Below are positions 20,543-64,000 of a stretch of 64,000 nt of DNA, piece by piece. Where the stretch lies: assembly GCF_019059575.1 (NCBI RefSeq), contig NW_024882756.1, positions 124,001 through 188,000 on the forward strand, given 5' to 3'. This DNA comes from Amphibalanus amphitrite. Lineage: Eukaryota > Arthropoda > Thecostraca > Balanomorpha > Balanidae. The first letter of the stretch is position 1. Every line of letters starts with the position of its first letter. The translations under genes and the position numbers were made by a program. Under the pieces are notes generated by a model. It had not been told where the DNA came from and did not search any database. It saw nothing but the letters and a program-made list of their open reading frames with translations.

Positions 20543-21475
20543 TTAACCCGCGAGTTGCTGGGGGGGGGGGGGGGGGCGTTAAACGCCCCCACTTTTTTCG
20601 CCGGGCCATAGCATAAAAATGGAGCGCCACAGGCGCGCCAAAATTTGGGTACCTGTAGGGAATGTCTATTTTGACGAAATTTCAAAAAAAAAAATCGGTC
20701 GGAAAAATTTTGAGATATCGAGGTTTTAGTGACGTCATGATTTCTGAGTTTTCGACCAAAAACGGTATATGTTCAAAAAATCATATAAAATCACAGAATA
20801 GACATACAGACATGCCGTAAACGGCATTAGACTGCCAATACCATAAACAATCAAATGGCTATCTTCGATTATTGATTATCGTTTCGCATTTGCCAAAATC
20901 TTAATCTGAATCTTGGCAATTTCTCGTGACTACTTCACGACCATGATACATACATTTCTTAAATTGAACTTTTTGAGCCAAACACGTACACATATGATGA
21001 AATGAATGTCACCATCGTGTTCTACGCCCCAAATTACTCATAAAACATGTGTCACAGGCTGCGAATATCAGTTTTGATTTTCGGGGATATGTGCCTACTG
21101 CCTACCCGGTTGACCTGACCTTGACCCTGACCTATGTTTTACTGACCCCTACATGGGGCTGACACTCTTGTAGGCCTTATATGATGGATTGTGCACCGTT
21201 TTGACAGAGTTTATGACGAGAGGCGCTCATTGCGAAGTCCTGAAGTCCATGCTACTGAAAGCCCGATTTCAGGTGTTTGACCTGACATTGACCCGACCTG
21301 TGACCTCGAAATTCAACTTTAAAGTACTCATCTGAAGCGTCTCGTCGCGTTCTTTCGTTTGCCGCCTCGTGCGTTTCGCTGCGCCTATTGGTTCTCGAGT
21401 TATCAGCTGGGAGCGTTTAACGCCCTCCCCCAGCAAACGGTGGGTGGCAAAATACCCCAGCAACTGCCGGGTTAA
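20543..21475. mobile_element. AGGTCA-rich TTAA element, subfamily 1 (925 bp)
   Basis: TTAA at 20543-20546 and 21472-21475. Ends: CCCGCGAGTTGCTGGGG and, reverse-complemented, CCCGGCAGTTGCTGGGG. Just inside are a long G run with CGTTAAACGCCCC on the left and GGGAGCGTTTAACGCCCTCCC on the right, so both ends can form a stem with loop TTAA or similar. The interior has several TGACCT hexamers near 21110-21310. No ORF. Confidence 0.82.
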
Positions 21476-22654
21476 CCCGGCCGGGCCCGGGGGGTAATCC
21501 CAACCACCGCAGCCCGGGGGGGGGGCCGTTTTTCGCCCCCCTGTCTAACTCCGTAAATAAGGGAGCTACGGAAACAAAAGCGATACCAAACGAAAACGAG
21601 ACGATTCTAATGCACCAAAAATTTTGACCTCAGGTCAATTTTCAAGGTCAGAGGTCAAGGTCAAAGGCAAAAACCGCCACATGTGTAGTGATCCCAAAGT
21701 AAGCCTTCTAGAGGACGGCAGGCTGCATCAAACCGGCAAAATTGGGTGTCAAACGAAAGAAGAGAATCTAAGGATTCTGAAAATGTGCTCAAAGTGAAAG
21801 GTCAAGGTCAAGGTCACGCTCAAAATTGACCTCAAACTTGGCACTTTTTCGCATATCTTGCGTGCTAACTTCCAAGATGTTTTGAAATGTTTTGAGGCTT
21901 ATCAGTTCCCTATTTGTGGTTCATCTTACGATACAAGGCTGCTCAAAGGTCAAGGTCACAGAAGAGTATCCCTGCTAGAGGCTATTTCACTGATTCAAGT
22001 TAGTAATAATAAATAAGACAACTTTGCAATCCGGAAGCTCTAAATGAAGGCTTAGAGGAAAATAGATGCCAGATTCGTGATCAGCGGGTACAAATCCATC
22101 ATAAACGACCTTTCATGTGTCAAGGTCAACCAGAGGTCATTCGAGGTCACATGAGGTCAACATAAAATTTGACCTTTTCCGAACAAAATATATATCATTC
22201 GACGCGGCTTGACAAGGCGAATGCGATGGTACCACTGCCGTAGCTCTAGGACCATTTTTATCGAAGTTATTTGCGAAAAACTAAAACCACATTTCGGGGT
22301 CGTTGACCTGACCACTGACCTCAGGTCACCAAAACTATTTTTCTACTTTTCTCCAGGTCAAACGCTACACAACCGTGCTCGTAATTTGTCTTTATCTCTA
22401 AAACTCTATTTTTAGCAGCTATTTGAAGTTTGCGTCTGTGACGCCGAAGTTTGCCGTGCAGGGGTCTAGAAAAATGGACCTTGTGACGTCATCAAGGGGG
22501 CTAGGTCCAAATTTTTTACTTCAGAAGATGTCAAATTGATGGGAGAAAAGGTACTGAAAGTTTCGTCTTCCTATCCCTAAGCGTTCGGGAGCTATCGCAA
22601 ATATTCGCCAGGGGGGGGGGGGCGAAAAACGCCCCCCGGGCCCGCGAGGGTTAA
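21472..22654 (+). mobile_element. AGGTCA-rich TTAA element, subfamily 2 (1175 bp)
   Basis: The element runs 21476-22650. It shares its left TTAA with the right TTAA of the previous element, and its right TTAA is at 22651-22654. Ends: CCCGGCCGGGCCCGGGGG and, reverse-complemented, CCCTCGCGGGCCCGGGGG. Subterminal hairpins are GGGGGCCGTTTTTCGCCCCC on the left and GGGGCGAAAAACGCCCC on the right. AGGTCA/TGACCT hexamers cluster at 21630-21680, 21800-21835 and 22110-22170. A near-identical inverted copy is at 53100-54288. Confidence 0.88.
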
Positions 22655-22659
22655 ACCCA

Positions 22660-25600
22660 CCCGCTCCGGGCCGATATCTCGGCGCCAACCGTGCCAGGCC
22701 GGATAACCTCCTCCCCCCGTCTAAATCGGCTCCTGGGCCACGTAGCGACACGCGGTAAGCGATATTCGAAAGAACATCCAAAACAAGGAAGAAAACATTT
22801 CAGTTACTTTTTAGGTCAGGTCAAAAGACAGGTCACCAGAGGTCAAATGTTTTCAACATTTCACTTTTTTCATAATTCATGACATAACATTTTTCGAAAT
22901 TCGAAACATTGGCACAGACCTCGGGAACAAATAGAGCTATATAGCGCCGCGGAAAAGAGCATCCGATAGCCCCTTTGACTTCTTTCTGCAATGAGTCCTC
23001 AAGTTGACCTCATGCCAACGGTTTAGCCTCCAGAGTGTAAAAACATGCAAAGTTAAGATTGTTTACGATTTTACGAAAATAATGATTTTCTTCAACAATT
23101 TTTGACTCAAGAGAGTCACGACATTACTTTTGACAGCATAGTGTTCCTCTCGTCGAGACGCGCCGAATGATATATTGTTTTCTGTTGATTATTATATAAG
23201 TTGATCTTGGAAGGCTAACTTGAAAATGTGACCTGAAGTCTAGGTCATGACCTGACCGGGAAAGGCCAGGATGCATATCAGTCGATTCGTATCGTAGAGC
23301 CGAACACATGTGGCGTTTTCATCGCTATATACCTAGCATGCGTCTATCAGAAGTTATGACCGAAAACTGTCAGATACCTACCTTTTCGTGACCTGAGATG
23401 ACCTCAGGGACATGACGAGGGGTCACGTGTGGTGTGTCATTTTCCAGTTCAGTGTGCCATGTTTACTTGTAATTCTGTGTTTCAACGTGATTAGAATGTC
23501 GTTCGTCCAAAAGAATAGCTTCCAATTTTCTCCCGTCGGCTTACAATGGAGAGGTCGAAAAATTGACCTTACCTTAGGTCACCGGTATCAAATTTCCGAT
23601 ATGTAAATTTTATAGATACTGTCACTCGTATATCAATCGTTGAAATACAATCGCTTAGTAAATGTAGCTATGCATGAGGAGCATTCTAAGTTTTTTTCTG
23701 AGGTGAGGTCACTGGGAGTGACCGTGACCTGACCTTTACACGACCTGGTTCTGAAATTTTTACAACATGTGCGGAACAGATGCATGAGCAGCGGTGCCAA
23801 AACGGTTGCGCGGAATTCCGCCGTTTTTGAGACATCTGGGGCATTCCACGTCAAATCAAACACCGAAATCCGTCATCCCCTTCGATTTTTCTGAAAATTT
23901 GTAGGCAGACTGGGCATGGTTCAAAACTGAGTTACGTATAATATTTTCGAAATTTGATAACGTATCGCTAAGATATAGGTCATCGAATATAGCGAAAAAT
24001 GCCACACATCAATTTTTTAAATGGCTATAACTCTGGTTCCTTTTCTGGTATCAAAATGATATTAACAGGGTCTTATAGGCAATTGATAAGGCTTTGATTT
24101 TTAATTATAAAATTAAATTGAAGTGACCTTGAAATGCATTTGACCTTGAATTAAAACAGAAAAATTTAAATAGCAAAAACACGTCACCTTCGATTTGGGT
24201 AATTTTTACATATTATGTCCGTCACAATGTTCCTAACCATCTGTGAAAAAATTGGAGTGGGCCATTCATAACTTTCGCGGCAAACGCCGTTTTCATGCAT
24301 CAACATCACGCAACCGCGCGTGACCTTGAAAGACAGAGTCGAGACATGCTTGCTTGTGTACACTTTCTGAAATGAATGATTGCTGATTAGTGATATCCCA
24401 AACTCTACGAGAATGGAAATGCATAGTCATCGTAGTCAAGCATTCACGTTCCATAGTAAAGGTGTCTCAGGCAAACGGTATTTTGCGGTGAATTTTGAGC
24501 CGTGTGGAAATGCATCATGAAGTAAATTCAACGAAAACATTATCACGCAACGATATCTTCACGTCTTTTGATCTTCACTATACGAAAGAACATACATTGT
24601 TTTGTATGTATGGGGAATTTCTAGTTAATCCAATAATAAATATGGCAGTTAGAGGCCTGCTAAGAGTAACATGTCGCCGGCTGAGGCGGGCTCGGCCGAT
24701 GCGGAAAACGCAGCAATCACAATTTTGTGTTTACACGTTCATATTTTAATTGTTTACCAACCGATTTTCAAAATTCTTTCACCATAAGATTGCCTGTACA
24801 TTGCTTAGTCTTCTCACAAAATTTGACGCGAATCGAACGTAATCAGCGGTAGGGAGCGCGATGTAAAGACGGAACCGTTCCGTTCCGTCCCGGCACAGTC
24901 TACAATTCAGGCGGCGCGTAGCGGTCGGCGCCAGCTGCCGAGTCGCCGCGTCGCTGCGGCGACAGGATGTTCACTTTACACCGCTATTACTAGAACAGTT
25001 GTGAACCGATTTTCTTATTGCTTGCACGATGAGATGTCCAATTCAATTCTTGACAGGTAGCCATAATAAATTTCGCATTAATCTTATGAGATATTGGCGA
25101 AAAACAGGAGGGGTGGGCGAAATTCGCTCTTCCCCCTCCACTGCGCGTGCTAACATACGTTTGCATATGTGCAATTTTCTTCAAAACTTATGAATGGCCC
25201 ACTCCAATTTTTTCACAGGTTGTTAAGAATATGGTAAGCAATAAAATATATGAAAATGAGCCAAATCGAAGGTGACGTGTTTTTTGCTATTTCAATATTT
25301 GTGCTTAAGAACAGAGTTAAGCAAATTTCAAGGTCATATATTTAAGTAGGTGCAATTCTAAACAAATGCTTAAGAAATTACCTAAACAGTAAGGTTTATT
25401 TCATTCAAATCAAACAAGTACAACCAAAGTTATGGTCGTTCAAAAATATAAAGATGCAACATTTTGTAAAAATTTGATGCCCTATATTTAGAAGACCTGT
25501 GGTCAGAATGTGCAAAAAACATCAATGTAATGTCCGGGGCCACACAGGAACTCGCTCACAAATTTATAATGAAATCGCTGATGGTAAGGTGCAAAACAGC

Positions 25601-25687
25601 CGATTTTTGTTCGATTTGACGTGGAATGCCCCATCTGTGGAAAACCACAGGCGTGGTGTCCGAACACAAACCCCGGCCCGGCGCGGG
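22660..25687 (-). mobile_element. AGGTCA-rich element, subfamily 3 (about 1.2 kb), interrupted by a 1.8 kb insertion
   Basis: Read on the minus strand, this resembles the 34487-35663 element along its whole length: the end GGCCCGGCGCGGG at 25687, the CGCGTGTCGCTACGTGGCCC block (here reversed near 22735-22755), and the conserved AAGGTCACC and ATCATTCG blocks. An unrelated element sits at 23838-25632 within it. The left boundary CCCGCTCCGGGCC at 22660 is five bases after the TTAA that ends the previous element. A matching target duplication is not evident (CCCA versus CTAG), so the exact ends are uncertain. Confidence 0.75.
23834..25636. mobile_element. Diverged foldback-type transposon inserted in the AGGTCA element
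   Basis: The element runs 23838-25632 with ATCT on both sides (23834-23837 and 25633-25636). Ends: GGGGCATTCCACGTCAAATC and its exact inverse. A second inverted block of roughly 110 bp lies about 440 bp inside each end (near 24160-24277 and 25188-25310), including AAAAAATTGGAGTGGGCC, so the arms align over about 440 bp but are diverged in between. Removing the insertion restores continuity with the related element at 34.5 kb. No transposase ORF. Confidence 0.82.
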
Positions 25688-34482: not shown

Positions 34483-35667
34483 ATATCCCGCGCCGGGCCG
34501 GGGGGGTGTTTGAACATCCCCCCTGCGGTTTTTCGCAGATATCTCAAAAACGGCGGCGCGGAGCGCCGCCGTTTTTGGCACACCTGTTGGTACATCTTTT
34601 CCGCACATGTTGTGAAAATTTCAGACCCAGGTCGCCTTAGGTCAGGTCACCAGGTCACGCCAAGTGACCTCACCTCAGAAAAAATAAGAATGCTCGTCAT
34701 AGCTACACCGATTGATCGATTGCCTTGAAACTTTCAGCGATTGATTAGAGCAACAGTATCTACAAAATGTATATCTCAGAATTTCGATATCGGTGACCTA
34801 AGGTCAGGTCAATTTTGCGGCCTCTCCATTATAAGTCAATGGGAGAAAATTGAAAAGCGTCTGTTTTGCACGAACGCCATTCTAGACACTCTCAAACATC
34901 GAGATGTAGGTAAAATTGACACACTGAACCAGAAAATGGCAACTGTGACCCCTCGTTATGTCCCCGAGGTCATCTCAGGTCACGAACAGAATCTAACAGT
35001 TTTTCGCTAATAACTTCTGATAGAGGCGTCCTAGAGCGCTGAAAACGCCTTAGATGTGTTCGGCTCGACGTTGCGGATCGATTGATATGCAACATGACCT
35101 TTTCCGGTCAGGTTATGACCTTGACCTGAGGTCAAATTTTCAAGTTGACCTTTCAAGGTCAACTTATAGTTCACTCGACGCGTCTCGACGAGAGGAACAC
35201 GATGCTGGCAAAAGTAATGTCATGGCTCTTTTGAGTCAAAAGTTATCGCCGAAAAACCGATTTTCGTAAAAACGGTTATTTTTTGAGTTTTTGTCCTCTG
35301 GAGGCTAAACCGTTGACCTGAGGTCAAATCTGAGAACATTATTCAGAAAGGCCTGTAAAAGGGCTATCGAATGCGCTTTTCCGCGGCGCTGTAGCTCTAT
35401 CGGTTCCCGAGATAGCCGTTGGCAGTTTCCAAAATGTTGAAATAGTCAACATTTTACCTTTGGTGACCTCTGGTGACCTGACCTTTGACCTGACCCAAAA
35501 AATGACCGAAGTGTTTTCGTCCTTATTTTGGACGTTCTTTCGATTGCCGCTTACCGCGTGTCGCTACGTGGCCCAGGAGCCGAGTTAGAAGGGGGGGGGG
35601 GTGTTCAGACACCCCCCCCCCCCCGGCCCGGCGCGGAATCTCAGAGCACCGGCCCGGCGCGGGATAT
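34483..35667 (+). mobile_element. AGGTCA-rich element, subfamily 3 (1177 bp), with ATAT flanks
   Basis: The element runs 34487-35663. The flanks are ATAT (34483-34486 and 35664-35667), not TTAA. Ends: CCCGCGCCGGGCCGG and its inverse. The right end carries a second, partial copy of the GGCCCGGCGCGG terminus. Subterminal hairpins are GGGTGTTTGAACATCCC on the left and a G run-TGTTCAGACA-C run on the right. The perfect palindrome GGCGGCGCGGAGCGCCGCC lies near 34549. AGGTCA/TGACCT hexamers recur at 34620-34680, 34795-34815, 34960-34985, 35085-35165 and 35450-35500. Confidence 0.85.
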
Positions 35668-37719: not shown

Positions 37720-38030
37720 TTGTCGTGAGACCTTGGAAACCCAGGACCTTAAAACATCCATGTGCCGCGAGACCTTGGAATCCCAGGACCTCAACATTTG
37801 CATATGTCGCGAGACCTTGGAATCCCAGGACCTCAACATTTGCATATGCCGCGAGACCTTGGAATCCCAGGACCTCAACATTTGCATATGTCGCGAGACC
37901 TTGGAATCCCAGGACCTCAACATTTGCATATGCCGCGAGACCTTGGAATCCCAGGACATCAACATTTCATGTGACATCAACATGAGAGGCCTTATAGAAA
38001 CCCAGGACCTCAACATTTCATATCCGTGAA
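37720..38030 (+). repeat. 42-bp minisatellite, about six units
   Basis: The core GAGACCTTGGAATCCCAGGA recurs at 37811, 37853 and 37895 and further, spacing exactly 42 bases; outer units are diverged. Because 42 is divisible by 3, all six frames stay open and give repeated 14-residue peptides on both strands, which explains the overlapping long ORFs. There is no sign that any is a gene. Confidence 0.92.
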
Positions 38031-39312: not shown

Positions 39313-39779
39313 TATATACCGTATTATGTAACTGAATGTGCAGAAAATTTGAAAGCATATACCTATCCAATTCAATTTTTCAACTTTTATGAATCCTGTA
39401 GGTTTTATTTCTGGTTTTTATCTTGCCTGAAAGAATACTTGGATTTCTGTCTTCAATAACTGCAATGTGCTATCCTACATTCCTAATGATCAGGTAAGAT
39501 TGATGTGAAAGGAACATGACAATACAAAATGCAAGGTACCTATTACCTACCTATATTTTTATGAATTTGTCCGGCTAAAGAAGGAGAGATTGATATCATG
39601 ATTCATCTTTAACTTTGACTTGTGTTGAAGCTCCCCCTACCTATGTAGTATGTTGGTAAATGATAAAACCACCACAGGTTTGCATAGGTTCTGCCCCTTT
39701 CAATGTTGCTGGGCATCTGTTGGCAGAATATTTAGAGGTAAGCCTGCTCATCAGAATGTTAGTTTAAGTTCTTGTTGTG

Positions 39780-42487: not shown

Positions 42488-43496
42488 TTAACCCGCGCAC
42501 CGACGGGGGGGGGGCGGATATCCGCCCCCCCTGAGGTTTTTCGCGAATAGCGGGAAAACCGCGGCGCGTAGCGCCGCGAAATTTGGTATGACTATTCCCT
42601 TATCAATTTTACACATGGTGTGCAAGTTTGAACCTCCTACCTTTCAAGGTCAGGTCACCAGGTCACTTTGAATGACCCAACCTCAAGTCACTTTTTTGCA
42701 ACTTTGTCACCGTGCCAGAGCTACAGTAGATGTCGGAGGCCTTTGAAAGTCGCAGGATGTTATTAGGTCATTAGTAGCTACAATTTGTATATCTCGGAAT
42801 TTTGATATCGGTGACCTAAGGTCAGGTCAAGTTTCGCGACCTCCCCATTATAAGTCAATGGGGGAAAAATCAACTCCCTGTTTTTACCACTAAAACGGGT
42901 CGGAATGGCCCCATATACCATACATGACCTCATATACGATCAACCTTCACTACCTTGAGGTCTGTTTTGCTGTTGGGCAGCTGTGAGGTCATGTGACGTC
43001 ATCAAAGGTCACCAAAGGTTTTTGGCCAATAACTCCGTACAGGAACAAGATACAGACGCGTGGATGGTCTCATTGTGTTCAGCTCGTCAAGACGCATCGA
43101 ATGATATACATGATGACCTCGAGGTCACGTGACCTGAGGTCAACCTTTGACCTTGACCTTTCGAGGTCAACATATATATCATTCGATGCGGATTGACGAG
43201 AGGATCACGATGATGCCCTTAGTTTGTTCCTATCTTGACTAATTCGAAAGTTATTCGAGAAAAACTCTCTCCATATCTAGCGCCGCCATTTTGACTTTTT
43301 CGACCCCTGTGACGTCATCTTTGACCTGACCTGAAAATGACCTAGTAAAAATTGTAGATCTTGACCGTGCGTATCCGATGCCGTTTACCGCTTGTCGCTA
43401 TCTTGCTTCGTTCTCGAGATCTCAGGGGGGGGGCGGTCATCCGCCCCCCCCCGTCGGTACTAAGTTGGCGCAGACCCCCGTCGGTGCGCGGGTTAA
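42488..43496 (+). mobile_element. AGGTCA-rich TTAA element, subfamily 4 (1001 bp)
   Basis: The element runs 42492-43492. TTAA at 42488-42491 and 43493-43496. Ends are CCCGCGCACCGACGGGGG and its perfect inverse at the right. Subterminal hairpins are GGGGCGGATATCCGCCCC on the left and GGGGCGGTCATCCGCCCC on the right. The palindrome GCGGCGCGTAGCGCCGC follows the left hairpin. AGGTCA hexamers cluster at 42645-42690, 42820-42840, 43105-43170 and 43320-43345. An inverted pair of ATCATTCGATGCG-type blocks flanks the 43105-43170 cluster. No ORF. Confidence 0.88.
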
Positions 43497-45251: not shown

Positions 45252-45562
45252 ATGGGAAAGGCTCGGAAGAAGAAAAGAAGGAAGAGACAGATGATGTAGA
45301 GGCAAAAACTTCAAACAGTACAAATAAAACAAAATTTGAAACATTTAAATCTAGCACAAAGTCGCTGAATGCACAGAACCAAAACCAAGCGAGGACCTTA
45401 GATTTTGAAGACGTAGAAAATAAGCAGGCAGTGTTTGGCATCACGAAAACACAGCATTGTCAAGGAAGTACGATCACTTCACGCACAGACAGAACAGAAT
45501 GTAAAAAACACAAACAGGGAAAACAAACCGTAAATTACAATGATACAAGAAGATGCAGTCAT

Positions 45563-48500
45563 ATGCAAATAGATACACAAAGAAGGGGTATCTCTGCAGA
45601 AGCTTCTGAACCAACAATGTGTTCGAAAACGGAAGAATGTAAAAAGATGAAAAAAGAAGATGGCAGGGAACAAAAGAAAATAGCAACAACTACACAAACA
45701 CAAATTCGCAGAGGTGGTGAAGGCTGTGTTATTTTGGGAATCATCAACATACAAGGCTTTACAAATGCCAAGCTAATTGAGGTGGAACAACTGATAGAAA
45801 ACAAATATGATATATTTTGCATCACGGAAACCCAACAAAAACATGATAAATTTGTGTTCTCTGACGGCATTAAATATTGCCAGAAAATGAGAGAACTGCA
45901 TGACAAAAAAGGTGGAGGATTGTTGACACTTTTCAAAGAGAAGGAGCTAGATGTGTCCCAAAAGAAAACGAGGAATGCAGACATGATGCATATGGAAGTA
46001 AAGAAAAAAGGGAAACATTTCCAACTGATATTAGTATACATGTCTGTCGACAACAGGACTGAGGATAAAGAACGAAACATCAACATCATGGAAGAAATTG
46101 GGACAATAATCGAGGAGGCAGAAAGAACAAATGAAGCACTCATTGTGGCAGGAGACTTCAATGGACACCTACAAGGCTTAGGCTATCAAAAACAAGACAG
46201 AAATGGGGACATGGTAGCAAATTTGCTCACCAACAGTAATATGATTTTAGTAAATTATCAGCACGAATGTGAGGGCATGTACACATGGCAAAGAGGGGAT
46301 CAACGAAGTGCAATAGACTTCGTGCTTACCAACAGAGCAGGTTATGGGATGTGCAAGAAGATGCATATAGATGAAGAAAGAGAAATAATGGATATAACAG
46401 ACCACAATCTCATAACTCTAACACTGAGAATGCAAAGAGAACAAGAAAACTTCAACAGAGCCGTGACAAAAGTGACTACATATTACAGAACAGATGAAGA
46501 AGCAATGCATGTTTTTGGAGAGGAATTGAAAAAGGAGCTAGAAAAAGAATCGGTAAAAACAATTACAGAACTAGACAAGCTGATGAAGACAAAGGCGGAT
46601 GAAATACTTCTTTGTCACTATAAGAAGAAATGCAATAAGGGAAAAATGGAGCGTCCTTGGGTAACAAGTGAAATAAGAAAAGAAATAAAGAAGAGAAAAA
46701 GCATTAACAGAGCGAAGAGAAACGCAAGGGAAGAACAAGAGCGAGAATTCTTGGAAGAGGAATACAAGAGTCAGAAGAAAAAGATACAATGCATGGTCAA
46801 AGAGGCAATCACAACCAACGAAAAGAAAATTACAAAAGAGATTCGACAGAGTGAAAACAATAGCAAAACATTATGGAAGAATATCAATAAACTCAGAAAC
46901 ATTGAAAAGAAACCAGATGAAGTACACTTATATGGATTGGATGGCAAACCACTTAGCTCCGAAGAAGAAAAAACAACGCTATTGCAATATTGGACATCCA
47001 TTTATCAGCAACATGATAATGAAATAAGCATGGTATGGGACATACAAAAGCAAGAGGAATATACAAAACAACTTGCTGAAGAAAACACCAGCTATCCAAT
47101 ACACTTAAGAGAACAATTGGACATGGAAAGAGTCATTGAGCAAGAAATAAGTCCAATGGAAAAACCAGATGTGACAGGAGAGGAAGTTAAGACTCAGATT
47201 TTAAAAATGAAACCTAAAAAGGCAGCTGGATCTGATGGATTAAAAGCAGAACTATATAAGGCTCTGGTGAAAACACAAAGAGGTCTCGATACAATAACAA
47301 ACTGCCTAAAAAATGAGCTGAATGCGAAAGAAAAGCCAGACAGTTGGAGAATATCAAACACTAGGATGATCCCAAAAAACACGAAACCAAGTGTTAAAGA
47401 ACTAAGGCCACTAGCTCTTACCAACTGTTCATATAAGTTGTTCATGAGCATAATTAAGGAAAACATTGAAGAACACTTGAAAGAAAATGGACAGGTCCTA
47501 GAAAATCAAGCTGGTTTTACTAAAGGTGGAAAGATAGAAGACAATATTTTTCTTTTGAACTACTGCATAGAAGACAGCATAAAAAAGAAAAAGCCACTGT
47601 ATGTAACATCAATAGATTTCTCAAAGGCATTTGACTCGGTGAAAAGAATGGCACTAATCGAAGCCATGAAAAACTACAAGATACATCCAGATGTGATAAA
47701 CAGTGTGGCAAATGTATACAAAGATGATGTGACATACATACGACTGAATAGCCAAACCGAACAGCGGATACCAATCACAAGTGGCATAAGGCAGGGGTGT
47801 ACTGGTTCCACCGTTCTTTTCAAAATTGTCACATACATAATCATACAAGAACTTCTGGAAACCAAACTGGGTTTTCGGAACAGGAAGATATACCTCCCAT
47901 TGCTGTTCTTCGCAGATGATGGGCTAGTACTGACACAATCAAAAAATGAAATGGAAGAACTGATAAAAAAGTTGATAACAACAAGTAGCAAATATGGGCT
48001 GAAATTAAACAAGGACAAATCAAGAATCCTAATATACAACATGCGAGAAGAACCACTGGAAAACAATATTCAAGGCATAAAGATAGAAAAAGAAATGAAG
48101 TACCTAGGTGTGAAAATTTGCAATGAAAGAGATATGTTCAAAGAACAAAGAAAAAACGCCATTTACAAGGCACAAAGACTTGCAAACATGACATTTAGCG
48201 TAATAAAGAAGAGCTGCAACAAGCTGCTAATAGGAAAAACTTTTTGGAAGTCGGTTGCGCTGCCATCCATTTTGTATGCAGCAAAGGTAACAACAACACC
48301 CAAAAATGATGTACAAAAGCTGCAAAAAATTGAAAATTCAGTCTATAGACAGATTCTAGGGGCTCCTCTATATGCTCCGACGTGTACATTACGGGGCGAT
48401 GTTGGATCATCCCTCATGGAGACCAGAATAATTGAGGGACACTTACAATATATACGGAAATCATTACAAGGAAACAACAACTTACTGAAAGAAATCATCA

Positions 48501-49051
48501 GACTGCAACTTGAAGAAAAAGTGACAAGATGGGAAAAGATAACAACGAAATATCTACAAGAAGCAGACTTGAATATAGCAAGACTTGAAGGAATGACGAA
48601 ACAAGAACTGAAGGATAAACTGAAAAAATATGATAAAAAGAAGTGGGAAGACGAGAAAGAACAAAAGGCAAGCATTTCATTATATCGAAAGTGTAAAACT
48701 GAGATAAGGGAAGAAAAAGTATATGATAACACACCTGCGTCTGTATGCCTGTACAGGGCAAGATCGAACACATTACAAATAAAAAGCAGACAATTCCAAT
48801 CAATCAACCAATCAAACAGCCTATGCGATCTCTGCAGACGAGAATCAGAAGATTTGGAACATTTTTTCTTAAGATGCGAAGCGCTCAATGATGTGAGATC
48901 TGCAATTGAGCCGTTGCAACGACCACATGTGGAAGACAGCACCGAAATATTGGCAAACCTTTTATTTAGTAATGATGAAAAGCAAATGGAGAAAAATAAA
49001 CATAGTGTTTACAAGATGTGGGAAGCAAGAAGAAAAAGGATGAGGCAGTGA
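45563..49051 (+). CDS. Retrotransposon 1 ORF2: endonuclease, reverse transcriptase, zinc knuckle
   Basis: ORF2 cuts target DNA and primes reverse transcription there. From the first ATG at 45563 it has 1162 residues, but the frame is open back to about 45182, overlapping ORF1 by some 70 bases, so translation by a -1 shift is possible. The apurinic-type endonuclease is at about 56-288: NIQG, TETQ, VYMSV, GDFN (197-200), SAIDFVL and TDHN. The RT core lies at about 540-800: KKAAGSDG, RPLAL, an IDFSKAFD block with catalytic Asp near 685, SGIRQGC, and FADD at 783-786 in place of YADD. A Cys/His knuckle CDLCRRESEDLEHFFLRC is near 1087-1104. Length and order fit a complete ORF2, and no key residue is missing. 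The AT-rich codon use differs from retrotransposon 2. Confidence 0.92.
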   Translation: MQIDTQRRGISAEASEPTMCSKTEECKKMKKEDGREQKKIATTTQTQIRRGGEGCVILGIINIQGFTNAKLIEVEQLIENKYDIFCITETQQKHDKFVFSDGIKYCQKMRELHDKKGGGLLTLFKEKELDVSQKKTRNADMMHMEVKKKGKHFQLILVYMSVDNRTEDKERNINIMEEIGTIIEEAERTNEALIVAGDFNGHLQGLGYQKQDRNGDMVANLLTNSNMILVNYQHECEGMYTWQRGDQRSAIDFVLTNRAGYGMCKKMHIDEEREIMDITDHNLITLTLRMQREQENFNRAVTKVTTYYRTDEEAMHVFGEELKKELEKESVKTITELDKLMKTKADEILLCHYKKKCNKGKMERPWVTSEIRKEIKKRKSINRAKRNAREEQEREFLEEEYKSQKKKIQCMVKEAITTNEKKITKEIRQSENNSKTLWKNINKLRNIEKKPDEVHLYGLDGKPLSSEEEKTTLLQYWTSIYQQHDNEISMVWDIQKQEEYTKQLAEENTSYPIHLREQLDMERVIEQEISPMEKPDVTGEEVKTQILKMKPKKAAGSDGLKAELYKALVKTQRGLDTITNCLKNELNAKEKPDSWRISNTRMIPKNTKPSVKELRPLALTNCSYKLFMSIIKENIEEHLKENGQVLENQAGFTKGGKIEDNIFLLNYCIEDSIKKKKPLYVTSIDFSKAFDSVKRMALIEAMKNYKIHPDVINSVANVYKDDVTYIRLNSQTEQRIPITSGIRQGCTGSTVLFKIVTYIIIQELLETKLGFRNRKIYLPLLFFADDGLVLTQSKNEMEELIKKLITTSSKYGLKLNKDKSRILIYNMREEPLENNIQGIKIEKEMKYLGVKICNERDMFKEQRKNAIYKAQRLANMTFSVIKKSCNKLLIGKTFWKSVALPSILYAAKVTTTPKNDVQKLQKIENSVYRQILGAPLYAPTCTLRGDVGSSLMETRIIEGHLQYIRKSLQGNNNLLKEIIRLQLEEKVTRWEKITTKYLQEADLNIARLEGMTKQELKDKLKKYDKKKWEDEKEQKASISLYRKCKTEIREEKVYDNTPASVCLYRARSNTLQIKSRQFQSINQSNSLCDLCRRESEDLEHFFLRCEALNDVRSAIEPLQRPHVEDSTEILANLLFSNDEKQMEKNKHSVYKMWEARRKRMRQ

Positions 49052-49338: not shown

Positions 49339-49587
49339 TTATTGAGCACTGCAGATAAATGAAATTTGGGCACCATGTTGGCGCTATTCACATATATTTG
49401 GTTTCATAATTAATTGTCGATACAAGAAAAATACTTATTACTTTCGCACATTGTCAGTAAATATTTTGATAATATATCTGGTGGTGGCGCTGGCATCGCT
49501 GCGCCTGGACGCCATGCTGCGGCGCTCCGTTATTTTAGTATTTTTATAAGTTTTTAATCGAGTGTTGGCCAAGTGATTGTTTTCAAG
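49339..49587 (+). other. Spacer between the two retrotransposons, probably 5' UTR of the second
   Basis: It follows the CGTCA tail of element 1 and leads to the ATG of element 2. The right half is GC-richer, like element 2. No promoter motif is identifiable with confidence. Confidence 0.4.
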
Positions 49588-52500
49588 ATGTGCATAAGTG
49601 CTCTGTGGAGGTGGTGCTTTGCTCTTCTGGTGTCTTTCCTCCCCCTCGGACTTACCAGCCCCGCTGAGGTGTCTCTGCCTGACGCGCCACAAATGTCTCG
49701 CCAGGATTTTGTTTACACGGCAGACGCGGCGGCTGGGGGTGCGGCGCCGCGAGTGACCTTGAACTTTCGGTCAGCTGATGCTCGGTCAGCTGGGGCTCTG
49801 GCGTCGGTCGCGCCGGCCGAGTCGGGCCGTCTGCGAATCGGCCCCGCTACTGGTGGCGTCATCTACACACGCCAGTATCTACTAGAGCTTCGGCGGTTCA
49901 CCGACACTCCACTGAGTGGCGCTACAGTCGCGCTGCTGCGTCGGCTCGGGCTGCGGAGACGTCGGCGGGGAGTTCGAGCTGGCCGCAAGTCTCGTCGCCC
50001 GATACGAGTTCGTGTAACCGAGCGACCGCCGCCCGGCCCCGCGGAGCGAGTGGGAGCTGCTGCTACTGCTGCTGGCGGCCTATGTCTCGCTCGGCCGCCG
50101 CGCCTGACGCTCCGGCAGACCCGACAGGCCGAGATCCAGGCAGTGGCGGCCGAGCGCGCCGCACTGAGCGTGGGACACCTCAACGTGCGCTCTCTGATGG
50201 CACATATCGACGATGTGAATCACCTACTGTTGTCCCAGCGACTCCACGTGCTTTGTGTCACTGAGACGTGGCTGACGGACGCAGTGGACACTCGGATGCT
50301 ACATTTCCCCGGCTACGTCATCAGCCGGCGTGACAGACGGGGAGGACGGTCTGGCGGCGGCGTTGCCATCATCTACCGCAACTCCATCACTGCTGACACA
50401 CTGCGTGTCCCGGCTGCATCGTCCGCCCTCGAGAGTCTCTGGCTGCGGCTCACACTCAAGTCACCGATCGTCGTCGGCGCAGTCTACCGGCCACCATCGA
50501 GTCCGATGACACCCGCCCTCGATGACATGCACAACCAGCTGACGAGCGTACTCGGCCGTGACCTGCCAGTCTACTTGCTCGGAGACACCAACATCGACGT
50601 CTCTCGGCCGGAGAAGCAGGGTGTGACGTCATACCTGCAGCAGCTGAGTGACCTGTCGCTGACACAGCTCATCACCGCACCAACTCGCCCCGGACAGAAT
50701 CCTACGCTGATAGACCACTTCATCACGAACAAGCCAGAACTAACTTCAAACGCGCGAGTCGTGTCGTGCAACATCAGCGACCACGACCTCATCGCCGCGA
50801 CGGTCTCTGTCGTCAAGACGCGCCACGTGGTGAACACCATCAACGTGCGGTCCACCAGGCGCGTCAACACAGACGCCCTGTGTCTGGACCTGCTCCAAGC
50901 AGACTGGTCACCGCTGTACGGCGCCAACTCCACGTCTGACAAGTGGAGCTGCTTCCTGAGCACATGGAGCCCCATTATCGACGCCCATATGCCGATGCGT
51001 GTAATCAAGCTGAAGCACAGACCGTACCCGTGGTTGCAAGACGACGACGTCAGAGAGGCGATGGCTGCGCGTGACCAGGCGCGTGTGGACCGCCAGCTGA
51101 CTCCATGTGACGCCACCGAGGCCGAGTTTCGGTTACGCCGAAACGCCGTCAAGGTGGTACTAAACCGGGCGTGCGCTTCATACTTCCAGACATCATTCAG
51201 GAACTCGAGATCGAAGACATGGCGTGATATCCGTCAATTTCTCGTCTCATCAGGGAAGGCAGCGCCCCGGGCAAGCACCGAATCGGGCAAGGACTCGGAA
51301 TGGAACAGCCGTCTTAACAGCTTCTTCGCGTCAGTGGGGGGAGACGTGGCGAGGTCGCTGGCGGCCGCCGACACCGGGGAGCCACTGCCGCCGCGCCCGC
51401 CGCGGGTTTGCAGTGACGCGTTCTCGCCGCGGCCTGCCCAGCTACCGGAACTGTCTGCCGCGCTGCGACAGATGAGCTCGTCCCGCGCGAGTGGCCCCGA
51501 CGGCATAACTGTCGATATGCTGAGGAAGACGTTTGCTGTTGTGGGGCCCCATCTGCTACACCTGATTAACTCTTGCGTCACTAAATGCGACATGCCTGAC
51601 CAGTGGAAGTCTGCCGTCATCATCCCGCTGTATAAGAAGGGCGACCGGCAGGACCCGAGCAACTACCGGCCGATATCTATCATTCCTGTTGTTGCCAAGT
51701 TGTGTGAGCGCGTGGTATGTTCCCAGTTGACGTCGTACCTAGACCGCAACGCTCTGCTCTGCCCGCAGCAGTATGGCTTCAGGCCCGGCATGTCCACGGG
51801 GGCGGCTATGCTTGACGTTGTCACGTATGTCACTGACAATATCGACAAAGGCCTCGTGACGTCACTCGTGACAGCCGATACGTCCAAGGCGTTCGACAGC
51901 GTCGAGCATGGCCGCCTCCTGGACAAGCTGGGCTGGTACGGGATTCGAACTGACTGGTTTTCTGACTGGTTGAGTGGGCGCAGTCAGGCTATCGGGTCGT
52001 GTCCGCTGAGCGTGACGCACGGCGTGATACAGGGGTCCATTTTGGGACCGAGCCTGTATTTGCTTTTCACCAACGACCTGGCCCAACATCTGTCAAATGT
52101 CAAACTAGTGATGTACGCTGATGATGTCCAGATCCTTGACGCTGACACTCCCAGTAACGTCTTGGCTATCAAAAACCGCATCGAAAGTGACCTATCTGTA
52201 CTCGTGCAGTGGTTCACTCAGAACCGGCTGAAAATTAACCCATCCAAAACTGAAATGACCATTTTGAAATCCAGTCGTCAAAAAACTAACACCAGTTTCT
52301 CGATCCACTTTGGCGGTGACGTAGTTTCACCTTCACCGAGCGTCAAGGTTCTGGGCATCACCATCGACTCTCACCTGACGTGGGATTCACATGTCACGTC
52401 TGTCGTCCAGCGCTGCAACATGATACTTGTTAGCCTAGCGAGAATGCGGAACAGGCTGCCGACGGAGACTAAGCGCCTGCTTATCGAAGCGTTAGTGTTT

Positions 52501-52899
52501 CCGCACATACAATACTGTATTAGCGTATGGGGTGCCTGCTGCATCGCTCAGAGGAAACGCATCCAAAAGGTGCTGAATTTCGGCGCACGTGTCGTGTCTG
52601 GCCTCAGCCGAAGAGATCACGTGACTCCTGTGCTTAACGAGCTGGGTTGGAAGTGTGTGGACGACTTGATTCGTGACAGTGACGTAGCTGTGGTTAGTCG
52701 CCTACTTACTTCGGACAGTGCACCACAAATCCTGCGGAGCAAGTTGGTGCTCAGCTCCGACGAGTCAGCTCGCACCACGCGTGCGACCGAGCGGGGACAG
52801 CTGCGTCTGCCCCGAGTCCGAACCGAGTTCGGCCGTCGTGGATTTTTGTTTCGCGCCAGCCAGCACTGGAACGAGTCCTCAGGAGCGCGTCAACAGTAG
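49588..52899 (+). CDS. Retrotransposon 2 ORF: endonuclease and reverse transcriptase (1103 aa)
   Basis: I take the ATG at 49588; the frame is open a few codons further upstream without another ATG. Residues 6-24 are hydrophobic (LWRWCFALLVSFLPLGL), resembling a signal peptide, followed by a region of low similarity with a basic patch (RRRRRGVRAGRKSRR) up to about 190. The apurinic-type endonuclease starts near 192: HLNVRSL, VTETW, VYRPP, GDTNID, TLIDHF and ISDHD. The RT has RASGPDG, NYRPIS, QYGFRPG, a TADTSKAFDS block with catalytic Asp near 764, GVIQGS and YADD near 843-846. The C-terminal part (LGITIDSHLTWDSH and onward) fits the thumb and C-terminal domain of jockey/CR1-type proteins; no zinc knuckle is obvious. 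All catalytic motifs are intact. Confidence 0.93.
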   Translation: MCISALWRWCFALLVSFLPLGLTSPAEVSLPDAPQMSRQDFVYTADAAAGGAAPRVTLNFRSADARSAGALASVAPAESGRLRIGPATGGVIYTRQYLLELRRFTDTPLSGATVALLRRLGLRRRRRGVRAGRKSRRPIRVRVTERPPPGPAERVGAAATAAGGLCLARPPRLTLRQTRQAEIQAVAAERAALSVGHLNVRSLMAHIDDVNHLLLSQRLHVLCVTETWLTDAVDTRMLHFPGYVISRRDRRGGRSGGGVAIIYRNSITADTLRVPAASSALESLWLRLTLKSPIVVGAVYRPPSSPMTPALDDMHNQLTSVLGRDLPVYLLGDTNIDVSRPEKQGVTSYLQQLSDLSLTQLITAPTRPGQNPTLIDHFITNKPELTSNARVVSCNISDHDLIAATVSVVKTRHVVNTINVRSTRRVNTDALCLDLLQADWSPLYGANSTSDKWSCFLSTWSPIIDAHMPMRVIKLKHRPYPWLQDDDVREAMAARDQARVDRQLTPCDATEAEFRLRRNAVKVVLNRACASYFQTSFRNSRSKTWRDIRQFLVSSGKAAPRASTESGKDSEWNSRLNSFFASVGGDVARSLAAADTGEPLPPRPPRVCSDAFSPRPAQLPELSAALRQMSSSRASGPDGITVDMLRKTFAVVGPHLLHLINSCVTKCDMPDQWKSAVIIPLYKKGDRQDPSNYRPISIIPVVAKLCERVVCSQLTSYLDRNALLCPQQYGFRPGMSTGAAMLDVVTYVTDNIDKGLVTSLVTADTSKAFDSVEHGRLLDKLGWYGIRTDWFSDWLSGRSQAIGSCPLSVTHGVIQGSILGPSLYLLFTNDLAQHLSNVKLVMYADDVQILDADTPSNVLAIKNRIESDLSVLVQWFTQNRLKINPSKTEMTILKSSRQKTNTSFSIHFGGDVVSPSPSVKVLGITIDSHLTWDSHVTSVVQRCNMILVSLARMRNRLPTETKRLLIEALVFPHIQYCISVWGACCIAQRKRIQKVLNFGARVVSGLSRRDHVTPVLNELGWKCVDDLIRDSDVAVVSRLLTSDSAPQILRSKLVLSSDESARTTRATERGQLRLPRVRTEFGRRGFLFRASQHWNESSGARQQ

Positions 52900-53095: not shown

Positions 53096-54292
53096 TTAAC
53101 CCTCGCGGGCCCGGGGGGGGGGGGCGTTTTTCGCCCCCCCTGGCGAATATTTGCGATAGCTCCCGAACGCTTAGGGATAGGAAAGCGAAACTTTCAGTAC
53201 CTTTTCTCCCATCAATTTGGCATCTTCTGAAGTAAAAAATTTGGACCTAGCCCCCTTGATGACGTCACAAGGTCCATTTTTCTAGACCCCTGCACGGCAA
53301 ACTTCGGCGTCACAGACGCAAACTTCAAATAGCTGCTAAAAATAGAGTTTTAGAGATAAAGACAAATTACGAGCACGGTTGTGTAGCGTTTGACCTAGAG
53401 AAAAATAGAAAAATAGTTTTGGTGACCTCAGGTCAGAGGTCAGGTCAACGACCCCGAAATGTGGTTTTAGTTTTTCGCAAATAACTTCGACAAAAATGGT
53501 CCTGGAGCTACGGCAGTGGTACCATCGCATTCGCCTTGTCAAGCCGCGTCGAATGATATATATTTTGTTCGGAAAAGGTCAAGTTTTATGTTGACCTCAT
53601 GTGACCTCGAATGACCTCTGGTTGACCTTGACACGTGAAAGGTCGTTTATGATGGATTTGTACCCGCTGATCACGAATCTTGCATCTATTTTCCTCTAAG
53701 CCTTCATTTAGAGCTTCCAGATGGCAAAATTGTCTTATTTATTATTACTAACTTGAATTAGTGAAATAGCCTCTAGCAGGGATACTCTTCAGTGACCTTG
53801 ACCTTTGACCAGCCTTGTATCGTAAGAGGAACCACAAATAGGGAACTGATAAGCCTCAAAACATTTCATAACATCCTGAAAGTTAGCACGCAAGATGTGC
53901 GAAATAGTGCCAAGTTTGAGGTCAATTTTGAGCGTGACCTTGACCTTGACCTTTAAATTTGAGCACATTTTCGGAATCCTCAGATTCTCTTCTTTCGTTT
54001 GACACCCAATTTTGCCGGTTTGATGCCGCCTGCCGTCCTCTAGAAGGCTTACTTTGAGATCACTACACATGTGCCGGTTTTTGCCTTTGACCTTGACCTC
54101 TGACCTTGAAAATTGACCTGAGGTCAAAAATTTTAGGTGCTTTAGAATCGTCTCGTAAGGACCTTTCGTTTGGTATCGCTTTTGTTTCCGTAGCTCCCTT
54201 AGTTACGGAGTTAGACAGGGGGGGGGGGCGAAAAACGCCCCCCCCCCCGGGCTGCGGTGGTTGGGATTACCCCCCGGGCCCGGCCGGGTTAA
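53096..54292 (-). mobile_element. AGGTCA-rich TTAA element, subfamily 2, inverted copy (1189 bp)
   Basis: The element runs 53100-54288. TTAA at 53096-53099 and 54289-54292. On the minus strand it matches 21476-22650 almost base for base, including hairpins with GCGAAAAACGC, the ATATATCATTCGACGCGGCT block (near 53545-53570) and both ends. The few small differences I saw (for example CCAGATGG versus CCGGAAG near 53715) indicate recent common origin. Confidence 0.9.
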
Positions 54293-56149: not shown

Positions 56150-56153
<4 letters not shown>

Positions 56154-58776: not shown

Positions 58777-59696
58777 TTAACCCTCGCCCGTAAACGGTGT
58801 TTTGCCACCTTCGCCCATGCAGGGGGGGTTGGTGCGACCCCCCCTGGCGTTTGAAAACGGAGCGTCGTAGAGCTTAGCGGAAAAGACCAACGGATTGCTC
58901 TCAACAAGATTTCGCGATTGGTGGTATATTTTTTTTGGTCCTAGGTCAACATTTGACCTACTTATGACCGGTCAAAGGTCAAAGTTTCGGAAAAATCTAA
59001 CTTTTTCAGATTTCCGCGCCGATTGTGGCAAAACGGTAAGAGATATCGACTTGAAACCTTCACTATCGTGATCCTTGATCAATTCTCTATCGTTTGGTGT
59101 GTATTTCGATGTCATAACTCTAAAAATGATGCGTTGGGAGCATCGGAAGTCTGCAAGGTCATTTGTGCATTGGGTCACGTCAGGCGTGTGACGTCACTGA
59201 CCTGACCCTGACCCAAAATGAACTACAAGAAACAACCGACGATGCCTGAAATGGATAGCAAATTCGAATTCAGGGCATCAAAATACCCCGAAAAGGCATA
59301 CAAGTGCAAGAAGTCATTACAGGTCAACCGAGGTCACTGACCTGACCTTGACCTTTAGTAACCTTGAAAAGGTCAACGGACATTGTGCCAATGTCAAATC
59401 AGCCAGTTATGATTCTAAAACAATCCATCATTGTGTCAGGTCAGTCGGCATTTATACCAATGTGAAGCAATCTCCAATTTAGCGTAAATCTGGCCGGAGG
59501 TTGTTCCCTTTATGACGTCATAACTCCGTGACCTGACATGACCTTGACAATTTTTTTTACCAAAAGTTGCGCAAAGGATGCCCCAAAGGGTACTGAAAAT
59601 TTGAGCAGGCTATCTGAAACGGTTCGGCGTGTAGCTAAGAAAAACCTCAGGGGGGGGGGTGCACCAACCCCCCCCCCCTACATGGGCGAGGGTTAA
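58777..59696 (+). mobile_element. AGGTCA-rich TTAA element, subfamily 5 (912 bp)
   Basis: The element runs 58781-59692. TTAA at 58777-58780 and 59693-59696. Ends CCCTCGCCC and its inverse, followed inwards by a CCATG / CATGG pair. Subterminal hairpins are GGGGGTTGGTGCGACCCCC on the left and a G run-TGCACCA-C run on the right. TGACCT/AGGTCA hexamers occur at 58945-58980, 59155-59215, 59320-59370 and 59525-59545. No ORF. Confidence 0.85.
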
Positions 59697-61335: not shown

Positions 61336-61420
<85 letters not shown>

Positions 61421-61428
61421 TCACTTAC
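61187..61428. repeat. CT-rich region with a long CT microsatellite
   Basis: Irregular CTCTC sequence from 61187 leads to nearly pure (CT)n at about 61315-61425. It is the same repeat as the GA tracts, in the other orientation. Confidence 0.95.
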
Positions 61429-62202: not shown

Positions 62203-62285
62203 CCATTTTCGCCGAACTCTGAGTCCGTGCCGCCGATCTCTGGGTCCCTGCCGCCGAACTCTGGCCCCTTTTCGCCGAACTCTTA
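62203..62285 (+). repeat. 21-bp tandem repeat, about four units
   Basis: Units of the type GCCGAACTCTGGGTCCCTGCC follow each other with changes, ending at the TTAA that starts the next element. The GCCGAA word is also frequent inside that element. Confidence 0.75.
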
Positions 62286-63308
62286 AGGCCGTGTTACACT
62301 GCCGAATTTTGGCCACGATCCTGTCGCCGAATCACGTCGTGTAGGAAATCGGCGAACAGTTCACCGACAGAGGCGAACAGTTCGCCGACAGAGCCCGATT
62401 TGCAGAAAACGGGTGGGGGGCCCCCCAAGCCCTTGTTACACTGCCGAATTTTGGTACACGAATGTGCACGAATATGCAAGTCATCCTATGTCGCGGACCG
62501 ATTCGGGATCTTTCTTCCACGGTCTTGGCATTTCGCAGACAAGTCGGTGCCCACCGCGCGACTTTTACGGTTCGTCACGACCGCCACGAATATTTCATGA
62601 AAAATGAAAATTTCGTGGCCGTTCGCCGAACTTATAATAAACGAACATGATCGCCAAACACTCGCCGAGTCACCGCCGACATGTCGCTACGAGCGCCGAC
62701 TTGTTGCCAAGGTATCGGCGACTATTCGCAACAGATTCGCCATTCATTCGCGATGTTCGCCGAATCATGGAGGCAGCTTCGACCCGCGCACGATTAGGGG
62801 GGCCCCCCACCCGTTGTCTGCAAATCGGGCTCTGTCGGCGAACTGTTCGCCTCTGTCGGTGAATTCTTCGCCGATTTCCTACACGACGTGATTCGGCGAC
62901 AGGGTCGTGGCCAAAATTCGGCAGTGTAACACGGCCTAATCGTGCGCGGGTCGAAGCTGATCCATGATTCGGCGAACATCGCGAATGAATGGCGAATCTG
63001 TTGCGAATAGTCGGCGATACCTTGGCAACAAGTCGGCGCACGCAGCGACATCTCGGCGGCGACTCGGCGACTGTTTGGCGACCATGTTCGTTTATTATAA
63101 GTTCGGCGAACGGCCACGAAATTTTCATTTTTCATGAAATATTCGTGGCGGTCGTGACGAACCGTAAAAGTCGCGCGGTGGACAACGACTGGTCTGCGAA
63201 ATGCCAAGACCGTGGAAGAAAGATCCCGAATCGGTCCGCGACATAGGATGACTTGCATATTCGTGCACATTCGTGTACCAAAATTCGGCAGTGTAACAAG
63301 GGCTTTAA
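62283..63308. mobile_element. Interleaved double inverted repeat (S-L-S'-L'), TTAA-flanked
   Basis: TTAA lies at 62283-62286 and 63305-63308. Between them are four modules: S (62287-62426, 140 bp), L (62428-62796, 369 bp), S' (62797-62936, inverse of S) and L' (62937-63304, inverse of L). The outward end of each module carries GTTACACTGCCGAATTTTGG or its inverse, so this 20-mer occurs four times. S and S' end inwards in GGGGGGCCCCCC. Copies are nearly identical. No ORF resembles a transposase. The right TTAA is shared with the next element. Confidence 0.85.
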
Positions 63309-64000
63309 CCCGCGCCCTGGTGGGGTCTGTTTATAACGCGACCTGGTGGGGGGGGGGGGGCTATTTTTGCCCCCCTCGTATCTCCGAAACTACTGGACGG
63401 ATCCGCAAAATTCAAACGGCGTTCGAAAGGCCTGTCAAATTTGTCGAAGGAAACCAAATTTCATTGACCTCCGGGTCACCGGTGACGTCACAGGTCAGGT
63501 CAAAGATGACATGTTTCACCGTTCACGGGTCATCTAGGGAATGCGCTAAACACCGAAGAAAACGCATTTTGTCGAGAATCAGCGATAGGGCGTCAGTTGC
63601 CTAGTAGATATGTTGCTATTAGAGGTCACTGACAATACCAGGTCAGGTCACAGGTCAGGTCACCAAGGGTCACAGGTCAGGTCACATGAGCCCAACTTTA
63701 CTAAGGTTGTGTGATGCATGTTTTATGGCCAATTTTTCATTTCCAACTCAATGGTGTTGGTTATAAGACTATCAGGTATGGCTTAGGTCACTTTCTGGTG
63801 AAGTTCAGGTCAAGTTCAGGTCAAGGTCAGGCCAAAAAAGGTCAAATTTTAAAGTTGATAGTTTTGCATAAAATGGGTATTGATTCGATGCAGCTCGTCA
63901 CGGGGAGTCTAATGGTGGTCTTTGTTTTGCGTTACGGGGTCTAGAATTGCTAAAAATTGAGTTTGAAAATTTGACGTCATCAATTTTGAACAGTTTTTTT
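63305..64000 (+). mobile_element. AGGTCA-rich TTAA element, subfamily 6, cut by the window end
   Basis: TTAA at 63305-63308, then CCCGCGCCCTGGTGGGG and, after a partial second copy of the ACCTGGTGGGG end, a long G run-CTATTTTTG-C run. AGGTCA hexamers are dense at 63480-63505 and 63625-63685 (direct repeats of CAGGTCAGGTCAC) and at 63805-63845. A block GATTCGATGCAGCTCGTCAC near 63880 matches the conserved internal block of other subfamilies. The right end is beyond base 64000. Confidence 0.8.

Follow-up and report, generated by a model that had tools for sequence, protein, structure and literature searches.

What kind of transposon can change a palindrome at both of its ends together and still keep the layout of those ends? 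This question is raised by a 64-kb window (positions 124001-188000 of contig NW_024882756.1) from the 807.55-Mb genome assembly of the barnacle Amphibalanus amphitrite. A sequence-only reading had described eight short elements here, E1 to E8, as one family of TTAA-type transposons with subfamily-specific palindromes. This is supported: the eight elements lie where they had been placed (Table 1), six of them with TTAA at the visible ends. The best overall explanation, which we consider probable, is that they are miniature inverted-repeat transposable elements (MITEs) of the piggyBac type, with palindromes read by the cysteine-rich domain (CRD) of a transposase and with a phased interior.

Short and long ends

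Each palindrome consists of a G run, a short core and a C run. The pattern of at least five G, 4-14 nt and at least five C has 13 matches in the window, and 12 of the 13 are ends of the eight elements. In 100 shuffles that preserve the dinucleotides it occurs 0.39 times on average and never more than three times. The palindromes had been placed just inside both ends. They are indeed present at both ends of all elements except E3, but only one of the two ends fits this description: the distance from the tip to the start of the palindrome is 13-14 nt at the short end and 39-41 nt at the long end. The long end contains an insertion of approximately 27 nt, which closes with a repeat of the inner tip motif. 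Every complete element of the window has one short and one long end, the decayed E3 excepted. E8 is cut by the window edge with its long end on the left, and a short right end was therefore expected. It is found 503 bp past the window, with a CTATTTTTTG core, the tip and TTAA.

For a survey of such ends the window, its extension and 200 kb from two other contigs (stretches C1 and C5, 100 kb each) were used. TTAA-CCC[GT] tips with a G-palindrome within 120 nt, at any offset, numbered 48. The offset is 12-14 nt in 23 of them and 39-43 nt in 22, while the remaining three have offsets of 16, 16 and 20; three control tetranucleotide tips gave, pooled, 3 matches (offsets 6, 40 and 106). Convergent ends with like tips, any end class being allowed, formed a short plus long combination in 17 of 17 pairs, a count that includes one spurious pair joining the ends of two neighbouring elements (C1 74678-77494) and one pair with poorly matching tips (C5 98073-99012). 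Target-site duplications (TSDs) were surveyed with free flanks, pairing only unlike ends. Four of the 22 candidate pairs span different elements; the other 18 comprise 16 with TTAA/TTAA, one with ATAT/ATAT and one with TTAA/TTTT. The tips are terminal inverted repeats (TIRs) of 13-14 nt that start with CCC followed by G or T, CCC[GT] having been imposed in the searches. Of the 16 non-spurious pairs, 15 delimit elements of 875-1391 bp and one an element of 2164 bp.

The TTAA duplication of the piggyBac superfamily is thus present, as is the asymmetry of ends seen in T. ni piggyBac, though not in piggyBat, with the palindrome shifted inwards by about 28 bp at one end (45 of the 48 ends at 12-14 or 39-43 nt). 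The features of MITEs are found as well: the elements are short and non-coding, have TIRs and TSDs and occur in high copy number. One short-end pattern, that of a single subfamily, was counted across the genome and has 1223 + 1219 = 2,442 matches compared with 2 for the backward control. The 200 kb of C1 and C5 contain 12 non-spurious pairs; extrapolated roughly from these two stretches only, the genome would have about 48,000 complete elements.

The closest known counterpart is piggyBac of Trichoplusia ni (IFP2). Its terminal repeats are described as 13 bp and its subterminal repeats as 19 bp long, and the spacer between them measures 3 bp at one end but 31 bp at the opposite one (PMC2532691, PMC12324416); the terminal repeat is given as 14 bp in PMC10140906. 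In the layout LE35/RE63 the right end corresponds to the left end plus an insertion and a sequence duplication, an asymmetry that is termed enigmatic (PMC7351741). LE35/LE35 is inactive, RE63/RE63 excises without integrating when the native enzyme is used, and activity is approximately halved if the duplicated motif is randomised or 5 bp are added (PMC7351741). The palindrome, at bp 17-33, serves as the binding site of a C-terminal CRD dimer (PMC7351741). In the structures described for piggyBac and piggyBat, CRD dimers bind the subterminal palindromes as double-stranded DNA, the piggyBat palindrome being unrelated. The barnacle elements share with IFP2 the TTAA target, a TIR of about 13 bp, a palindromic subterminal repeat at both ends and the insertion with a repeated inner motif at one of them. 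The resulting shift is 28 bp in IFP2 (63-35 or 31-3) and 26-28 bp in the barnacle. The sequence-only reading knew of no described family with this rule, which was mistaken in principle, since the palindromic 19-bp repeats of IFP2 are reported as identical and asymmetrically placed.

In contrast to IFP2, the barnacle palindrome is built from a G run, a core and a C run and starts 13-14 nt from the tip without a 3-bp spacer. Moreover, a single genome contains many core types of the barnacle elements, CCCG tips are numerous, the interior has a phased motif, and no transposase was seen in the ORFs tested. In piggyBat from Myotis lucifugus each binding unit of the left end is described as a short motif, GCGGGA (the first at bp 11-16), and, after a gap of 3 bp, an imperfect palindrome to which a CRD dimer binds. 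The right end of piggyBat has no palindrome, unlike the barnacle elements with one at both ends. The CMITEs of Acropora corals are piggyBac-related MITEs with TTAA and CCC tips, and their families have different TIRs and a common interior (PMC2872659). They are, however, about 100 bp long, their common interior is one conserved 75-bp block, and the cited part of that paper mentions neither G/C palindromes nor a phased motif. New in the barnacle are the number of coexisting palindrome types, the arms made of G and C runs and the phased interior.

Judged by target site, tip and end layout rather than by a protein, the elements are very probably non-autonomous piggyBac-type MITEs, mostly of 0.9-1.4 kb. 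Two observations weigh against this assignment. Pfam detected no piggyBac domain in 16 open reading frames (ORFs; 6 of the window, 10 of the 200 kb), and many tips are CCCG and not CC[C/T]T, the tip quoted for piggyBac (PMC2872659). A search of viral contigs for true piggyBac ends gave 4 pattern matches, none with the piggyBac palindrome or motif strings, and these look like chance matches.

Coupled cores and the reading of the palindrome

The core had been described as kept between the two ends of one element. This is exact for E1 and for E2/E6; in E4, E5 and E7 the two cores differ by 1-2 nt, and in E8 by one T. Covariation of left and right cores had been suggested as a check, and it is borne out. 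Among 15 element types the mean similarity score of a core to that of its own partner end is 0.79, compared with 0.36 to other types, a difference reached in none of 20,000 permutations, and in 13 of the 15 the partner end is the best match. The coupling is also seen within the CCCG class (1/20,000 permutations, n=9) and within the CCCT class (27/20,000, n=6). These figures overstate its strength, because some types are related and so not independent, and because trimming of the cores was done by eye. In one pair (C5_98073) the ends match poorly, which counts against the overall explanation. Across 28 distinct cores 66 of 84 outer positions are paired about the dyad, compared with 31.1 after shuffling (0/20,000 shuffles), a count in which both cores of an element are included and which is hence not made of independent cases.

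Homogenising repair between the ends, offered earlier as one cause of the coupling, is rejected for the E5 (GGATATCC) subfamily. With the short core fixed and the long core left free in the search, 24 copies were examined, and the long core is GGATGACC in 20 of the 20 with a reachable far end. The long core thus differs from the short one in every case; the ends are not homogenised, and each holds its own version. Some sequence is also common to ends of different elements: the short ends of E4, E5 and E7 share TG(A/C)GGTTTTTC just after the C run, and several long ends have TAACTC or ATCTC shortly past it.

By analogy with the piggyBac structures, the palindrome is probably the binding site of a CRD dimer. 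We propose that a piggyBac-type transposase supplied from elsewhere would place its core domain on the tip and a CRD dimer on the palindrome, bring a short and a long end together and transfer the element from one TTAA site to another. That this synapsis is obligate is inferred from the same structures. The G and C runs would be length-unstable arms flanking the recognised core. The palindrome would be subfamily-specific because each transposase lineage reads its own half-site, and for the same reason both arms and both ends would change together.

Three other explanations of the ends have to be weighed against a CRD-bound palindrome. The palindrome may be extruded as a hairpin or cruciform and read by a single transposase serving all subfamilies, and recognition of the hairpin itself had indeed been suggested. 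Dyad symmetry persists as the sequence changes, G-runs would favour stable stems, and peaks of PGBD5 are reported to overlap repeats capable of dyadic structures (PMC12324416). Nevertheless, G-arm and C-arm lengths within one end are uncorrelated (rho 0.03 and -0.13), which rejects a constraint for equal arms. Where the two ends of E4, E5 or E7 differ, no compensating change is seen across the dyad, and shape alone leaves the common core sequence at both ends unexplained. Since CRD dimers recognise double-stranded DNA in the known structures, hairpin recognition is not needed and appears improbable. Kolobok and Sola3 transposons also have TTAA target sites. The duplication is therefore not unique to piggyBac, and the 16 ORFs tested contained no piggyBac domain. 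However, CCC tips, a 13-nt TIR, a palindrome at both ends and an insertion with motif duplication at one of them form the layout of piggyBac (the comparison was made with piggyBac ends only), and an origin in one of these two superfamilies seems quite unlikely. Finally, G runs and palindromes might be assembly artefacts, as run lengths vary from copy to copy: in E5 copies the G run has 6-14 nt at 21 distinct short ends and 7-15 nt at 18 distinct long ends. Part of this variation may be assembly error. The palindromes themselves recur genome-wide, with a large excess of one short end over its backward control, their positions are fixed across many subfamilies and the cores between the runs are constant. 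It is hardly credible that they are artefacts as such.

The phased interior

The interior of the elements is rich in AGGTCA. On either strand this hexamer occurs 136 times in the 10.1 kb of elements (13.47/kb) compared with 28 times in the 53.9 kb outside (0.52/kb), a 26-fold difference. All 500-nt segments (100-nt steps) with at least 5 AGGTCA overlap one of the eight elements, and of 31 similarly AGGTCA-dense regions in C1 and C5, 26 lie no more than 1.3 kb from a G-palindrome. RGKTCA is described as the half-site of nuclear receptors (PMC1785376). Like the DR2 retinoic acid response elements carried by Alu, the barnacle elements are transposons spreading half-sites of this type; Alu is, in contrast, a retroelement, and 170-bp phasing is not mentioned in the cited part of that work (PMC1785376).

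The AGGTCA sites form clusters with a median span of 36 bp, whose centres are 168.5 bp apart (interquartile range 155-181, n=34). A first cluster no more than 260 nt from the left tip is present in 10 of 15 elements, where it lies at 146-170 nt; a last cluster equally close to the right tip is likewise present in 10 of 15, at 104-172 nt. Across the 15 elements the power at a period of 165 bp is 123.7 compared with a null mean of 63.4 (0/500 nulls). Seven chosen lineages, represented by one element each and having only short stretches in common, give 67.0 compared with 32.9 at a period of 170 bp (0/1000). The 536 AGGTCA sites of the two stretches that lie outside the 15 elements again peak near 170, 340, 510 and 670 bp, many of them belonging to further copies of the same subfamilies. 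Among 16 frequent hexamers tested, a spacing of about 170 bp is seen for AGGTCA and words overlapping it (ratios 3.2-14.8), while the rest reach at most 1.3, the G run aside.

The spacers between the clusters have a rhythm of A/T (WW) dinucleotides. In 31 non-redundant spacers it amounts to 3.12 at 10-10.25 bp, compared with 1.55-1.59 in the non-element DNA of the same stretches, which served as background, and about 1.63 after shuffling (0/200 each). A further 28 spacers show it more weakly, with 2.58 at 9.5 bp (0/200), 2.27 at 10.25 bp (4/200) and 2.44 at 10.5 bp (0/200). A WW pattern of about 10 bp is described as a mark of nucleosomal DNA (PMC6735720). This pattern of nucleosome-positioning DNA is found in the spacers, whereas its counterpart in G/C (SS) dinucleotides is lacking at 10.25 bp.

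The sequence of the interior is thus consistent with a chromatin code that phases nucleosomes, which we put forward tentatively, as somewhat less than an even chance; the nucleosome occupancy and the protein binding AGGTCA would both be inferred. The interior would be organised in units of about 170 bp, each with a cluster of AGGTCA half-sites and a spacer of about 130 bp with the 10-bp rhythm. Nucleosome phasing would put AGGTCA into the linkers, where a nuclear receptor or another AGGTCA reader may bind and hold the element open. A limited literature search returned no report of such interior phasing.

The clusters may equally have no role in chromatin and be sites for a transposon-encoded factor or the remnant of a tandem repeat of about 170 bp, a possibility that also falls a little short of even. 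Motif arrays bound by element-encoded proteins occur in other DNA transposons, and about 170 bp is a usual length of satellite units. The spacers within an element, however, show little homology: 78 comparisons have a mean of 14.8 compared with 14.4 after shuffling, two of them being above the shuffled 99% level (highest 40). Since the spacers are unlike one another, the spacing is not simply the relic of a tandem repeat, and an old satellite is unsupported. An array for factor binding does not, in its simple form, predict the 10-bp WW rhythm. This rhythm could also mark intrinsically curved DNA.

Several observations weigh against a phased, nucleosomal interior. Element C1c has no AGGTCA at all, and E1 and C5c have few. 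The clusters are confined to one half in E1, E8, C1d, C1e and C5b and interrupted by a gap of 1131 bp in C5a. AGGTCA-free halves of four mutually related elements nevertheless carry the WW rhythm (3.78 compared with 1.67 at 10.5 bp, 0/300), and motif clusters and rhythm are therefore separable. At 10 bp the further 28 spacers reach only 2.13 (13/200 of the background), and a lesser WW excess is also present at 7 bp. SS dinucleotides have no clear rhythm at 10.25 bp (reached by 39 of 100 shuffles); at other periods 7 of 100 shuffles reach them at 10 bp and 1 of 100 at 9.5 bp, yet none of 100 at 12 bp. GC content fails to separate the spacers from the flanks of the clusters. Finally, private variants of 21 E5 copies show no clear avoidance of the motif (7 of 111 AGGTCA columns and 61 of 594 others).

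Variants present in at least two of these 21 copies fall in none of the 111 AGGTCA columns and in 22 of the 594 others, which 5 of 826 circular shifts of the mask equal. In addition, identity is higher within AGGTCA in all six pairs of related element types (0.66-0.83 compared with 0.59-0.77 elsewhere). The variant pattern is what selection would leave if it acted on source elements and not on every insertion.

The elements in the window and their significance

Table 1. Coordinates of the elements and their parts within the 64-kb window.
Feature	Position	Strand	Description
E1	20547..21471	+	925 bp; short end left, long end right; core CGTTAAACG at both ends
E1 flanks	20543-20546 and 21472-21475		TTAA
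E1 short-end G/C palindrome	20560..20590	n/a	
E1 right palindrome	21409-21431		interrupted; GGGGGAGGG arm
E2	21476..22650	-	1175 bp; long end left, short end right; core CGTTTTTCG; TTAA both sides
E2 palindromes	21516..21541; 22611..22637		long-end; short-end
E2 AGGTCA sites	21625 to 22360		n=20
E3	22660..25687	-	decayed E4-type element split by nested insert
Nested element inside E3	23838..25632	n/a	1795 bp; TIR GGGGCATTCCACGTC; TSD ATCT at 23834-23837 and 25633-25636
E4	34487..35663	+	1177 bp; short end left, long end right; cores TGTTTGAACA / TGTCTGAACA; TSD ATAT (34483-34486, 35664-35667)
E4 palindromes	34500..34523; 35591..35624		short-end; long-end
E4 AGGTCA sites	34639..35491		n=21
E4 AGGTCA clusters	~34652, 34802, 34974, 35129, 35319, 35477		centres at element nt 166, 316, 488, 643, 833, 991
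E5	42492..43492	+	1001 bp; short end left, long end right; cores CGGATATCCG / CGGATGACCG; TTAA both sides
E5 palindromes	42505..42531; 43425..43452		short-end; long-end
E5 AGGTCA sites	42647 to 43343		n=20
E6	53100..54288	+	1189 bp; short end left, long end right; TTAA both sides
E6 palindromes	53113..53140; 54218..54248		short-end; long-end
E7	58781..59692	-	912 bp; long end left, short end right; cores TTGGTGCGA / TTGGTGCA; TTAA both sides
E7 palindromes	58822..58844; 59650..59678		long-end; short-end
E8	63309..64000	-	cut by window edge; long end left; 1195 bp in contig
E8 long-end palindrome	63348..63375		

E3 does not belong with the others as a like member, as had been assumed. It has neither a clean G-palindrome nor matching flanks and aligns to E4 in inverted orientation with 75% identity over 1149 nt. 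A nested element accounts for its length, so that a long autonomous element is rejected, and without this insert an E4-type element of approximately 1.23 kb remains. The nested element contains internal inverted segments and no stop-to-stop ORF of at least 110 aa. E6 and E2 are 95% identical in opposite orientation, each surrounded by TTAA. The ORF at 53792-54202 in the interior of E6, the sole element ORF tested, has no Pfam match. E1 and E2 adjoin (20543-22654) and have one TTAA in common, as if one had landed in the TTAA of the other, and beyond the window a second E8-like copy adjoins E8, with TTAT on both sides. Altogether, the elements and palindromes of the sequence-only reading are real, and its statements on palindrome placement, E3, the flanks of E4 (ATAT, not TTAA) and core identity had to be corrected.

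Other features of the window are a GC-rich tandem array with a 20-bp unit of the CCCTGGCAGGCCTGTGGTGC type (18514-19938) and two tandem arrays with a period of 42 bp (37727-37967 and 39769-40299). Two ORFs of the LINE (long interspersed nuclear element) type with reverse transcriptase and endonuclease domains are found at 45176-49051 (1291 codons open) and 49558-52899 (1113 codons); the ORF ahead of the first (44256-45251) matched no Pfam family. An ORF of 315 codons with a GIY-YIG domain (3361-4308) is perhaps a Penelope-like remnant. Known RNA families and tRNAs were not detected in the window at the thresholds used.

Within one genome, about 15 element types differ in their palindromes and yet all retain asymmetric ends, so that the link between CRD and palindrome could be read from evolution. 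If the palindromes prove to be specific, genome engineering would gain a series of transposon ends that exclude one another. More speculatively, and in our view rather unlikely as a whole, a very large transposon group may carry its own chromatin plan, in which, from the tips inwards, nucleosome lengths with a 10-bp A/T rhythm alternate with half-site linkers; the element would be opened, and its movement perhaps timed, by hormone receptors of the host or by a factor of the transposon, together with many palindrome types (at least 15 element types) that split one end architecture into lineages without cross-reaction. If the phasing does reflect nucleosomes, these transposons would encode their own chromatin state, and their transposition would seed very many AGGTCA half-sites across the host genome.

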